Positions 43,694-47,404 of a DNA stretch of 64,000 bases are shown here, piece after piece. The notes beneath the pieces were generated by a model. It was not told where the DNA came from and searched no databases. It was given only the letters and a program-made list of their open reading frames with translations. Position numbers and translations under genes: made by a program. Source of the DNA: Streptomyces sp. NRRL F-5630 (GTDB lineage: Bacteria > Actinomycetota > Actinomycetes > Streptomycetales > Streptomycetaceae). Each line of letters opens with the position of its first letter. Position 1 is the stretch's first letter. The stretch covers positions 1-64,000 of the forward strand of contig NZ_JOGO01000050.1 of NCBI RefSeq assembly GCF_000719475.1, in the 5' to 3' direction.

Positions 43694-44341
43694 ATGTTCG
43701 GCGTCATAGACCTGCCCACGTACCTCGCGGGCGTGGCACTCATCGTTCTGCTGCCCGGGCCCAACTCGCTCTACGTGCTCTCGGTGGGCGCGCGGCGCGG
43801 GGTGCGGACCGGGTACAAGGCCGCTGCCGGGGTGTTCCTCGGGGACACGGTGCTCATGACGCTGTCGGCCGCGGGCGTCGCCTCGCTGCTCCAGGCGAAC
43901 GAGATGCTGTTCTCACTCGTCAAGTACGCGGGCGCCGGGTACCTGACCTGGCTCGCCTACGGCATGATCCGCTCCGCGCTCGCGCTGTGGCGCACGCGCC
44001 AGGAGCGGGCCGCCGAGGCGGCGGGCGAGGAAGCTCCGGCGGAGCGCGAGCGCCCCTTCCGCCGGGCCTTCGTGATCAGCCTCTTCAACCCGAAGGCGAT
44101 CCTCTTCTTCATCGCCTTCTTCGTGCAGTTCGTTCCAGCGTCAAACCCACTCCCGGGCTTCATCTTCCTGGGCTTCCTTGCCCAGGTCGCGAGCGCTCTG
44201 TACCTGTCGGTCTTGATCTTCAGCGGCGCTCGCCTCGCAGCGGCCTTCCGCAAGCGCAAGGCGCTCAGTGCGGGAGCTACCTCCGCAGCCGGGGTCGTCT
44301 TCCTCGGGTTCGCCTTGAAGCTGTCGTTGGCAAGCGCGTAG
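43694..44341 (+). CDS. LysE/LeuE family amino-acid exporter, chimeric 3' end
   Basis: 215 aa from ATG 43694. LysE-family start VIDLPTYLAGVALIVLLPGP with the conserved NSLYVLSVGARRGVRTGYKA; five or six membrane helices. It probably exports amino acids. From about residue 146 (base 44128 on) the base composition drops, with codons such as GTT, CTT and GCA, and the sequence differs from the displaced native tail at 47185-47404, which matches the same part of the protein (QLASALYLSVLIFTGTRLAA there, QVASALYLSVLIFSGARLAA here). So the last third was supplied by inserted DNA and the frame is preserved. Likely functional. Confidence 0.88.
   Translation: MFGVIDLPTYLAGVALIVLLPGPNSLYVLSVGARRGVRTGYKAAAGVFLGDTVLMTLSAAGVASLLQANEMLFSLVKYAGAGYLTWLAYGMIRSALALWRTRQERAAEAAGEEAPAERERPFRRAFVISLFNPKAILFFIAFFVQFVPASNPLPGFIFLGFLAQVASALYLSVLIFSGARLAAAFRKRKALSAGATSAAGVVFLGFALKLSLASA
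44128..44134. repeat. Left attachment-like core of the insertion
   Basis: GTTCGTT within CTTCGTGCAGTTCGTTCC. It marks the switch from native high-G+C exporter codons to foreign ones. Confidence 0.5.
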
Positions 44342-44422
44342 GGGGCGTCGTGTCCGATCTCGTCCGTGTTGCATCCCTGTTCGCCCACATGACCCGCGCG
44401 GATGCCGTGATCAGGGGAGTGG

Positions 44423-44461
44423 AAGAGCCCCGCCCTGACACGCAATCAGGACGAGGCTCTT
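44423..44461 (+). terminator. Hairpin after the chimeric exporter gene
   Basis: AAGAGCC pairs with GGCTCTT, with an inner CCTGA/TCAGG stem. It lies within the inserted DNA. The surrounding non-coding stretch (44342-44625) shows no gene. Confidence 0.55.
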
Positions 44462-44625
44462 GGCGTGAGAAGTGGCCTGGTGCGGGCGCCCTTCGGGACG
44501 CTGGTGGGGTCTACGCGTCAGTGCGCAGCTCTCCCGGCATGGGGCCGGCTCCGAGGACCATGGCGTGCGGGGGACAGGCGAAGAGAGTGAAGCCGGGGCC
44601 AGGCTGCTCCCCTACTGCCGTTGTC

Positions 44626-45592
44626 TCAGCGACTCTGATTGAGCGCGACGCTCAACAGGAGTTCGACCAGCCTGTGCGCAGCGTCGGGCTTGCCCATTGA
44701 GCGCGCCGCTCCCGCCATCGTCTCCCGGCGCTGTGGGTCGGACAGAAGAGGTTCCAGGGCGCCCCGCAGCGCGGACGCGGTGGCCCTGTCTCCGGTCAGC
44801 GCTACAGCGGCCTTCGACCCAGTTCGGCCCGCACTGGTGGATGACGTTGGCGACGGACAGCAGCCACGGGAGGTTTTCACGGATCACGCCGTTGATCTGC
44901 TCGCTGCCCTGGGCTCCGCCGGTGATGTAGACGGTGGGCAAGTCGGGGTCGTATCCGGTCATGCCGAGGGCGGGAACGGCCTTGGCGGGGTCGCCGGTGA
45001 GCACGGTGGGCCGGACAGGGTTGCCGGTGACGACAGCGGCAGCGGCGACGGAGTCGGGGAGAAGGCTCAGCGAGTTCTCCGACGACAGCGCGACGGCGGT
45101 CGCGGAGCGGGCGAGGACCCGGTTGGCCAGGCCGAGTCGGACGGTCTGCTCATGGATGACCAGCGGAGTCTTCGTCGCGCGGGCAGCAAACCCCACGGGG
45201 ACAGCGACATACCCCCCGGTGGAGAGGATCACGTCGGCCTGGAAGCGGCGAGCGATGGTCCGGGCCTCCAGGACGCCCTTGGGAACGCGACCCACGTCCC
45301 GCATGTTCTCAGCATTGATCATCTTCAGCGGGTTGCTGGAGCGGCGTAGCTTGCCGGTCGGCACGGTTTCGAAGGGGATGCCCTCGGCAGGGGCGACGCG
45401 GGATTCGAGCCCGGTGGCGGTGCCGACCCATAGGACGTCCACGCTCGCGCCGTGGTGGTGCATGACGGTCTGCATCTCGCGGACCGCTGTCAGGGCGGGA
45501 TAGGTGTGCCCACCCGTTCCGCCTCCCGTCACCATCAGCTTGAAGGGACGGCGAAAGGAGGCGAAACGGGTGGCGAGGGCGTCGACGGTCAC
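44626..45592 (-). pseudogene. murG-like glycosyltransferase pseudogene (internal deletion and frameshift)
   Basis: Starts at GTG 45592 and shows the MurG N-terminal domain: KLMVTGGGTGGHTYPALTAV, TGLESRVAPAEGIPFETVPT, STGGYVAVPVGFAA, HEQTVRLGLANRVLAR, and TGNPVRPTVL. After VANVIHQCGPNW the frame changes, and the C-terminal end (ALRGALEPLLSDPQRRETMA, then SMGKPDAAHRLVELLL) is found in another frame, ending at 44626. Around 60-70 residues of the second domain, including the UDP-GlcNAc-binding region, are absent. So an out-of-frame deletion has destroyed the gene. It is a paralogue carried on inserted DNA, not the essential murG of the division cluster. Confidence 0.75.
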
Positions 45593-45652
45593 AGCGTGAC
45601 GGCATCCGATCGTGAGGGCTCCGCATCCGACGAGCCGGAGCCGACGGCGGTC

Positions 45653-46454
45653 ATGCGAACCTCCCGGACGATATCAGGCAATCTGACCTTGGTGAGGAGC
45701 CAGCCGACCCCGGCGGCTGACGCGGCTGGAGGCTGGTGAGAACTCGGTTGTCGACATCGCGGACGTGATCGCGCTCTGCGAGAACTACGCGGCGCCGCGA
45801 GAGAAGCGTGCTCTGCTGCTCGAATACGCCGCGGTGACGAAGAGCAAGCGAGACTGGTGGCAGACTCCCGAGTTCCGACTGGCCATCCCGCCATCGTTCA
45901 AGGCTTACCTGGGTCTTGAGGCGACTGCCGAGAGTCTGAACAACTACAAAGCCGAGTTCGTGCCCGGCCTCCTTCAGACGGAGGGGTACGTATGGACGAT
46001 CCACGAGCGCTCGCACGAAAGGCTCCCAAGCGACGAGATCGACCGCATCGTTGCCGTCCGCATGACTCGACAGGAGGCTCTTCACCGTGTGGAGGCCCCC
46101 TTGCAATTCGCTGCGATCATCAACGAGGCCGTCTTGTACCGTCAGGTCGGTGGTCCGGACGTCATGCGGGCTCAGGTACAGCATCTGTGCGAAATGGCCA
46201 TGCAGCCGGGCGTTCGGATTCAGGTCGTGCCGTTCAAGGCCGGCGCTCATGCCGGTGTGAACGGTTCGTTCATGCTCCTGCGGTTCGAAGATGCTCAGCC
46301 GATCGTCTACCTGGAGAACCTAGGCGGTGCGTCAGTCATGCGTAAGCCTAAGAGCGTTGACCAGTACGAACGAGCGTTCACCGACCTCCAGATTCTTGCC
46401 TTGGGAGAACGAGATTCCCTCGGCATGATGAAAGAAGCAATCAAGGAGCATTGA
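45653..46454 (+). pseudogene. XRE/DUF5753 regulator with deleted helix-turn-helix
   Basis: An ATG at 45653 opens with MRTSRTISGNLTLVR, typical of the family start, but the frame ends early at 45739. The expected end of the HTH (RRLTRLEAGENSVVDIADVI) is in a second frame that continues to 46454 through a full DUF5753 domain (YLGLEATAESLNNYKAEFVP, LLQTEGYVWTIHERSHERL, VRIQVVPFKAGAHAGVNGSF). So roughly 30-40 HTH residues are missing with a frameshift. The DUF5753 part can still be translated alone from GTG 45765 (229 aa), so a truncated product is possible. Followed 5 bases later by its usual DUF397 partner. Confidence 0.7.
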
Positions 46455-46459
46455 TTCAG

Positions 46460-46672
46460 ATGACCAACCACGCCGCACTGACCGGGGCTCGCTGGTTCCG
46501 TTCAAGTTACAGTAATGACCAGGCCGGGAATTGCGTCGAGGGCGCAAGGCTCGAAGGTGCGGCCATGGCAGTGCGGGACTCGAAGGACCCGAACGCCGGG
46601 GCGTTCGTTTTTCGAGCAGATGCCTGGGGTGCTTTCCTCAACACAGTTAAGGGACGCACCGCAGAAATGTAG
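46460..46672 (+). CDS. DUF397 domain protein
   Basis: 70 aa from ATG 46460, five bases after the DUF5753 reading frame. Matches DUF397: ARWFRSSYSNDQAGNCVEGA, then AVRDSKDPNAGAFVFRADAW and FLNTVKGR. These small proteins are nearly always encoded just after an XRE/DUF5753 regulator and form regulator-partner pairs in Streptomyces. Here the partner's HTH is damaged, so the pair is probably not functional as a DNA-binding system. Confidence 0.9.
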   Translation: MTNHAALTGARWFRSSYSNDQAGNCVEGARLEGAAMAVRDSKDPNAGAFVFRADAWGAFLNTVKGRTAEM

Positions 46673-46690
46673 CCCCGATGTGGGAAGACG

Positions 46691-46717
46691 GAGCCCCGAG
46701 CGCAACGCTCGGGGCTC
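46691..46717 (+). terminator. Terminator after the DUF397 gene
   Basis: Perfect 12-bp stem GAGCCCCGAGCG/CGCTCGGGGCTC with a 3-base loop, followed by a pyrimidine run including TTT. Confidence 0.88.
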
Positions 46718-46753
46718 CTGTCGTTTCCCCCCCCACATGGGATGTGTGTGTCA

Positions 46754-46828
46754 ATTCATTCATGAGCGGTCGTGACGGGTCTCGATTGTGCTGAGAACCA
46801 CGGAAGCGGCCATTGATTCATTCATGAG
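46754..46828. repeat. 13-bp direct repeat around an unknown gene's 3' end
   Basis: ATTCATTCATGAG occurs at 46754-46766 and 46816-46828, 62 bases apart. It overlaps the last codons of the minus-strand gene. Probably a product of replication slippage or a small deletion in the inserted DNA. Confidence 0.6.
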
Positions 46829-47137
46829 TGCCATCCGTGTAGCCCAGAATGCCGAGAAGGGCTCTTGGGGGGAGGTGGAATAGGGTGCCTTCTTGGTGGC
46901 TGAGACCCCCAAGTCCCGGGCGACTCCCACCAGGCGGATACCTTCGCGGAGCGAGTGGCGGCGTAGATCCAGCTCCTGTCGTGCCAGGCTGGTGGTCTCC
47001 TCCGTGAGCACGGACAGGCGCACGGACAGCAGTCCTCGGAGTGCGTCCTCCGGTAGGGCGTCGTTCGCTGCCTCCAGCTCGGCAAGCTCCAGGAGTTCGT
47101 CTGCGGTCCAGTCGGGGGCGGTCGTCTTCGGTGCCAT
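46760..47137 (-). CDS. Unknown small helical protein carried on the inserted DNA
   Basis: 125 aa from ATG 47137. Charged helical sequence: TAPDWTADELLELAELEAAN, then LRGLLSVRLSVLTEETTSLA, QELDLRRHSLREGIRLVGVA and RDLGVSATKKAP. The GIRLVGVARDLGVS stretch resembles a minimal helix-turn-helix of the Hin/RpiR type. No family recognised. It lies at the right end of the insertion, where an integrase or directionality factor would be expected, but neither fold is evident. The C-terminal ~35 residues look atypical and lie over the 13-bp repeats, so the end may be rearranged. Confidence 0.55.
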   Translation of the reverse strand: MAPKTTAPDWTADELLELAELEAANDALPEDALRGLLSVRLSVLTEETTSLARQELDLRRHSLREGIRLVGVARDLGVSATKKAPYSTSPQEPFSAFWATRMALMNESMAASVVLSTIETRHDRS

Positions 47138-47184
47138 CCGGCGCAGCCGTACGCGCAGTTGGATGCTGGAACTATCTTCATTCG

Positions 47185-47404
47185 GTTCGTTGACCCCGCC
47201 TATGCCCACCCCGCGCTCTCCTTCGTCGTGCTCGGCTTCTTCGCCCAGCTCGCCAGCGCCCTCTACCTGAGCGTCCTCATCTTCACCGGCACCCGCCTCG
47301 CCGCCGCCTTCGCCCGCCGCCGTCGCCTCCGCGCCACCGTCACCTCCGCGGCGGGCGCCCTCTTCCTCGGCTTCGCGGTGAAGCTCTCGCTGAGCGGCGT
47401 CTGA
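47185..47404 (+). pseudogene. Displaced native 3' end of the LysE/LeuE exporter gene
   Basis: The reading frame through 47404 gives FVDPAYAHPALSFVVLGFFA, then QLASALYLSVLIFTGTRLAA and SAAGALFLGFAVKLSLSGV, collinear with the C-terminal third of the exporter encoded at 43694-44341. Its base composition matches the host flank. It has lost its own start and upstream two thirds, consistent with separation by an insertion at GTTCGTT (47185-47191). Confidence 0.8.

Follow-up and report, generated by a model that had tools for sequence, protein, structure and literature searches.

In this report, we focused on a LysE-type amino-acid exporter gene and on the DNA inserted into it in a 64,000-nucleotide (nt) stretch of Streptomyces sp. 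NRRL F-5630 (contig NZ_JOGO01000050.1, positions 1 to 64,000; hereafter the window). The gene starts with a host-derived head (43694..44133, plus strand; LysE/LeuE, PF01810), which ends in a 17-nt core, TTCTTCGTGCAGTTCGT (44117..44133, an unstranded feature), and continues into an element-borne C-terminal end with its stop codon (44134..44341, plus strand) that is 98% identical to the corresponding end in another genome, G010. Head and tail make an open gene of 215 codons that matches LysE (PF01810, E 3.3e-44). A second LysE C-terminal end (47191..47404, plus strand; PF01810, E 2.8e-9), in open frame and of the native type but separated from the head, lies directly behind a copy of the core with four mismatches (47174..47190, likewise unstranded). 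The two tails form a direct repeat in the same orientation, 3,063 nt apart and 80% alike over 51 nt in a repeat search; as a whole, their DNA is 66% alike. Just ahead of the second core, on the minus strand, lie residues 1-86 of a serine integrase, including the motif VRLSVLT (46880..47137), the remainder of which is deleted. We consider it very likely that what remains at this locus is a decayed small element, inserted site-specifically in the exporter gene by a large serine integrase. Uninterrupted sites, left and right junctions (attL and attR) in many genomes, a contig with the site of the element itself (attP), the full-length integrases of relatives, and a single clade of element tails all point to this at the level of sequence.

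A first-pass annotation of the window had bounded the insertion by two copies of GTTCGTT at 44128 and 47185, enclosing about 3.06 kb of lower G+C. Both copies are present (44128-44134 and 47185-47191, 3,057 bp apart), but GTTCGTT alone proves nothing since it occurs five times on the plus strand of the window (and not at all on the other strand), and the core of the family is the 17-nt sequence rather than these seven letters. The lower G+C holds, with values of 0.59-0.70 between the cores vs. 0.70-0.80 on the right (500-base windows); parts of the left flank dip to 0.68-0.70 as well. At third codon positions, G+C falls from 0.97 in the head to 0.82 in the inserted tail and is back at 0.95 in the native tail. 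The uninterrupted site (attB), attP, attL, and attR were all found in natural sequences and are related by one crossover in the shared core, in agreement with the earlier proposal that the exporter gene is an attachment site. In the attP described below, a dyad is centered on GT at core positions 7-8 (15 of 25 pairs), a score reached by 0.8% of 2,000 shuffles at their best center, making GT (44123-44124 in the attL of the window) the predicted crossover dinucleotide. The attR core of G295 has a 1-nt deletion, which puts the native tail out of frame, and this tail was left out of the tail comparison.

The distribution of uninterrupted and occupied sites is what a site-specific insertion would produce. 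A search of 100 genomes for the exporter head gave matches in 80, and 30 loci were fetched, including the window. Twenty-eight of the other 29 run uninterrupted into the native tail—the empty sites that the first-pass annotation had hoped to see in relatives—and none of these 28 already carries the foreign tail. The remaining one, G010, runs into the element tail. Its head is 93% identical to that of the window, vs. 74-81% for the other 28. When the inserted tail was searched in 392 genomes of the genus, matches beginning at the core and passing the LysE stop were found in at least 11, the window's own included; this is a lower bound, because a twelfth genome with the insertion (G116) surfaced only through the small open reading frame (ORF) that follows the tail. 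A contig search yielded nine integrase loci, in S. flavidovirens, S. altiplanensis, S. lucensis, S. zinciresistens, and five further Streptomyces; four of the nine (G158, G203, G295, and G028) are also in the 392-genome set. Integrase-bearing elements with the same exporter end thus do occur elsewhere, as had been anticipated: the integrase start adjoins the native LysE tail in 9/9, and the head, element tail, and small ORF are at the far end in 8/9 (L091 having its small ORF in two frames), while in the ninth (L086) the contig ends before the far end is reached. The elements that could be measured span 2.8-10.0 kb.

The earlier statement that the element has no recombinase had to be revised in view of the integrase remnant. 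When the entire insert was compared with phage records at the DNA level, serine integrases were matched near its right end. In related loci, a full integrase begins with this stretch; the gene is full length in L072, L073, L074, and L075, is broken in L077 and L079, and is without its start in L080. The full-length proteins (524-526 amino acids) adjoin attR in four fetched loci, and three of them are 90-93% identical to the fourth. The window remnant scores 136 bits over profile positions 1-87, is 76.7% identical to the L075 integrase by tblastn, and is below the cut-off for PF00239 (E 0.022); resolvase and recombinase domains (PF00239 and PF07508) are found in the relatives L073, L092, and L093. 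In the host genome, the integrase profile matched nothing beyond the remnant at E 0.001. Mobilization in trans, which had been offered as an alternative to decay, looks unlikely because of this lack of another match and because the right site is mutated. An integrase match at E ≤1e-30 was obtained for 71 of the 392 genomes, and eight reach at least 700 bits, all eight with the element tail; the next score is 588. Of the 11 tail genomes, five encode a full-length integrase (G028, G158, G203, G273, and G412, in the last on a different contig from attL) and four a broken one (G000, G057, G190, and G295), and for G010 and G139 the 392-genome search listed no match of the LysE-site clade. We infer that the integrase of this clade performs the insertion reaction. 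In G057, the integrase gene (L079 3286-6282) is split after residue ~59-69 by ~1.3 kb containing a 386-amino-acid ORF that, by eye, looks like a transposase. A 54-kb viral or prophage record (L093, G431), which also has a DNA polymerase gene, encodes an integrase (73% identical) that adjoins a native-type LysE tail; the exporter site thus appears to serve a larger prophage as well. Only the attR-side tail was found in that record, and its other end (attL) was not, and its integrase, used as a query, matched only its own record.

What the free element may look like is suggested by the IMG/VR contig L092, which reads as a circle because of a 127-nt terminal repeat (8,819 bp without it). Its order is integrase start, core, element tail, and small ORF, with no exporter head; its left arm resembles the attR arm of the family and its right arm the attL arm. 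By its sequence, this junction is the attP of the excised form, so that the replacement tail is part of the element's own attachment site. Among viral contigs scanned for the attL/attP junction pattern, L092 was the only match.

In the tree, 17 element tails are separated from 40 native tails by a branch with 100/99 support (the bootstrap being not fully settled), with the window, G010, and Streptomyces sp. A0958 forming a subgroup (100/94); the native tail of the window has the longest end branch shown (0.29). This supports the first-pass view that the inserted DNA supplies a compatible but foreign C-terminal end while the native one persists after the right core. Element tails are open for 74 codons in 17/17, and in the main group of 12 their pairwise similarity exceeds that of the corresponding host heads in 66/66 pairs (means 0.939 vs. 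0.779), although these pairs are not independent. The median ratio of nonsynonymous to synonymous substitution rates (dN/dS) in that group is 0.23, and we therefore think that the tail is kept as protein; against the window tail, values are 0.13-0.24. Element tails and their own native tails have only 66-71% DNA likeness (eight pairs read in frame), and behind attR there is damage to several native tails, with a frameshift in L091 (1/8 readable) and native-tail matches that span 21 residues in G057 and 32 residues in G116. The hybrid exporter probably works. A search for LysE tails in phage records gave a single match, in Pseudomonas phage Y6 (E 3e-6).

We propose that the attP of the element carried the 17-nt core in common with the exporter gene and that, from the start of the core, it encoded 74 codons of a diverged, compatible LysE C-terminal end followed by a 71-amino-acid ORF. 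Recombination would have joined the host head to the element tail at attL, which is why the exporter would have stayed whole, and would have pushed the native tail behind attR, beside the integrase start. Decay would have followed, breaking the integrase, the small ORF, a glycosyltransferase gene, and a radical S-adenosylmethionine (SAM) gene and mutating attR, with the exporter end left intact. That the element is decayed, one of the two options in the first-pass annotation, is apparent from a comparison with G010 (L040), which shares it at 95-98%. G010 retains an intact small ORF, an intact MurG-like gene (401 amino acids), and a radical SAM gene that is B12-binding by Pfam (L040 3745-5859). 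In the window, the small ORF is limited to its first 15 codons before it is broken (44350..44395, plus strand; 46/46 nt the same as in G010), the MurG-like glycosyltransferase remnant (44602..45592, minus strand; PF03033 and PF04101) lacks 239 nt at 44812/44813, and the B12-binding radical SAM gene is reduced to its final ~44 codons (45589..45723, minus strand), homology with G010 stopping at 45723. Conversely, G010 has lost its right end, including attR and the native tail, in a deletion (L040 3876 to 5864) that joins the radical SAM gene to the middle of a host gene matching the window from ~52025. Both therefore hold damaged elements with an intact exporter end, and the window copy looks immobile.

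Other explanations can be put to the same data. If the two tails were tandem paralogues, or the product of a partial duplication of the exporter, both would be copies of one host gene, which fits their shared orientation and their 66% likeness in DNA. We regard this as exceedingly improbable, since the element tails form one clade apart from the native tails—the tree thus speaks against a possibility that the first-pass annotation had itself named as damaging—while relatives' loci, with the sole exception of G010, go straight into the native tail, and an integrase remnant lies between the two tails. A foreign gene end could also have been captured by homologous recombination or gene conversion, the nearby mobile DNA being unrelated, and the window copy alone is indeed too decayed to prove site-specific recombination. 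However, a tail of this type, the core, and the integrase start are found at one and the same position across many species and L092 shows attP, so that we give this explanation very little credence. Finally, the element might disrupt the exporter, with the likeness of the tails reflecting only extended homology between attP and attB for recombination rather than protein function, a scenario compatible with the insertion history. It appears unlikely in view of the 74 codons that are open in every element tail, the low dN/dS, the limited likeness between element tails and their own native tails, and the damage to some native tails behind attR (L091, G057, and G116).

Several observations nevertheless weigh against an insertion by the integrase at the 17-nt core, which we continue to favor. 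The attR core is not recognizable from the window alone because of its four mismatches. Its predicted central dinucleotide reads AT instead of GT, as does that of G203 (L072 7205-7221), and since the integrase of G203 is full length, GT as the crossover is not certain. The circularity of L092 was deduced from a 127-nt end repeat, which assemblers can also generate. The tails of the window and G010 differ so little (proportions of synonymous and nonsynonymous differences 0.05 and 0.012, respectively) that selection on the window copy is poorly testable. Lastly, the break at 44812/44813 falls at an overlap with contig C133 that resembles an assembly-graph junction, so that the inner structure near 44812 may be imperfect: the end of this contig (6854-6947, G000) equals window 44719-44812 (94 nt, exact), and deeper in C133 129 nt match the part of the MurG-like gene missing from the window, followed by unrelated DNA with regulator-like genes. 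This overlap could be an assembly-graph junction, a second copy, or a sign of a mixed population.

The small ORF starts 8-9 nt past the exporter stop in 17/17 attL/attP sequences, immediately downstream of a purine-rich stretch overlapping this stop, and shows 59-93% identity to the first of 11 aligned sequences. It is present in 11/392 genomes, all 11 with the LysE exporter insertion; the window genome scores none because its copy is cut short. Apart from two N-terminal helices, the predicted structure is poor (mean predicted local distance difference test score 71, predicted template modeling score 0.34). Its position, its conservation, and the two-helix model make it a candidate excision factor. 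The excision factor gp52 of phiJoe, shown experimentally, occupies the same position relative to attP and integrase according to the accessible text of its description (PMC5311408). Small ORF and gp52 show no convincing sequence match, the HHalign comparison being weak (probability 12.7%, E 0.0023, 21 columns only). We tentatively raise the possibility that the element ties its excision to host exporter expression and thereby limits it. When integrated, the candidate ORF would share the exporter's host promoter and be translated along with the exporter; the excised circle would lose this promoter, which would turn the factor off and favor reintegration. If this were true, the element would read host exporter activity.

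The nearest described relatives are the SCO2603-type elements and phiJoe, whose insertion site, in the portion of the report consulted, lies in a B12-binding radical SAM gene, 74 bp from its end (PMC5311408). The integrases are related (the LysE-site integrase is 48% identical to that of phiJoe), and, as far as that portion goes, integrase and small ORF flank attP divergently on opposite sides and content and size differ between hosts in both groups. Unlike these elements, the LysE-site elements target LysE instead of a SCO2606-like radical SAM gene and carry a 74-codon replacement end, of which the same portion makes no mention for SCO2603/phiJoe (PMC5311408). phiJoe was rejected as a direct relative because its integrase is just 48% identical and its target differs. 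The radical SAM cargo gene of G010 is of the same broad type as the target gene of phiJoe-type elements in that partial account (PMC5311408).

Some members of the family have phage-like cargo. A capsid gene is found in L092, G273, and L085, and a terminase small subunit and an HNH protein in L092 and G273 (L085 was outside that scan); no capsid match was found among five ORFs scanned between the window cores. PF03354, one family of terminase large subunits, matched 0/5 records, which says little for a single family. The excerpted source describes phiRv1 and Mycobacterium elements resembling phage-inducible chromosomal islands (PICI) as small, with an integrase and a capsid gene, and its loose candidate PICI consists of integration machinery plus a major capsid gene (PMC10654092). 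L092, G273, and L085 have this combination, unlike the window copy. The capsid-forming PICI, as outlined in the consulted section of another report, have capsid, protease, portal, connectors, both terminase subunits, and HNH (PMC10690885). L092 has the capsid, terminase small subunit, and HNH only; its filtered ORF list contains no other ORF >199 amino acids besides integrase and capsid, and it has no PF03354 match. The target of phiRv1 differs from LysE. Replacement of the 3' end of a protein gene is known from e14 and phage 21 in E. coli icd, where integration swaps this end for a phage-borne version; these use tyrosine integrases, unlike the LysE-site elements with their large serine integrase. 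In the titles and abstracts searched, we found no description of LysE as an integrase target and no clear precedent for gene-end replacement by serine integrases. The mechanism class is known, whereas no description of the LysE target, the replacement end, or the coupled small ORF was found at that level or in the consulted sections of PMC5311408, PMC10654092, and PMC10690885.

These findings define the exporter gene as the target of a distinct clade of serine integrases whose elements carry a replacement gene end and, in some cases, capsid genes. They make natural attB, attP, attL, and attR sequences available for a possible new Streptomyces integration system. They also suggest that a mobile element can lastingly alter a host protein, as the elements in the window and G010 are damaged and the borrowed exporter end persists.

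The insert also holds two adjacent genes on the plus strand, a DUF5753 regulator (45765..46454; PF19054, E 3e-57, the sole family listed), in the frame of which a Pfam scan found no helix-turn-helix domain, and a DUF397 gene (46460..46672; PF04149, E 7.2e-21). An exact 13-nt direct repeat, ATTCATTCATGAG, lies between the DUF397 gene and the integrase remnant (46754-46766 and 46816-46828). Directly after the DUF397 gene, there is a perfect 13-nt inverted repeat with a 3-nt loop (46690-46718), which is possibly a terminator.

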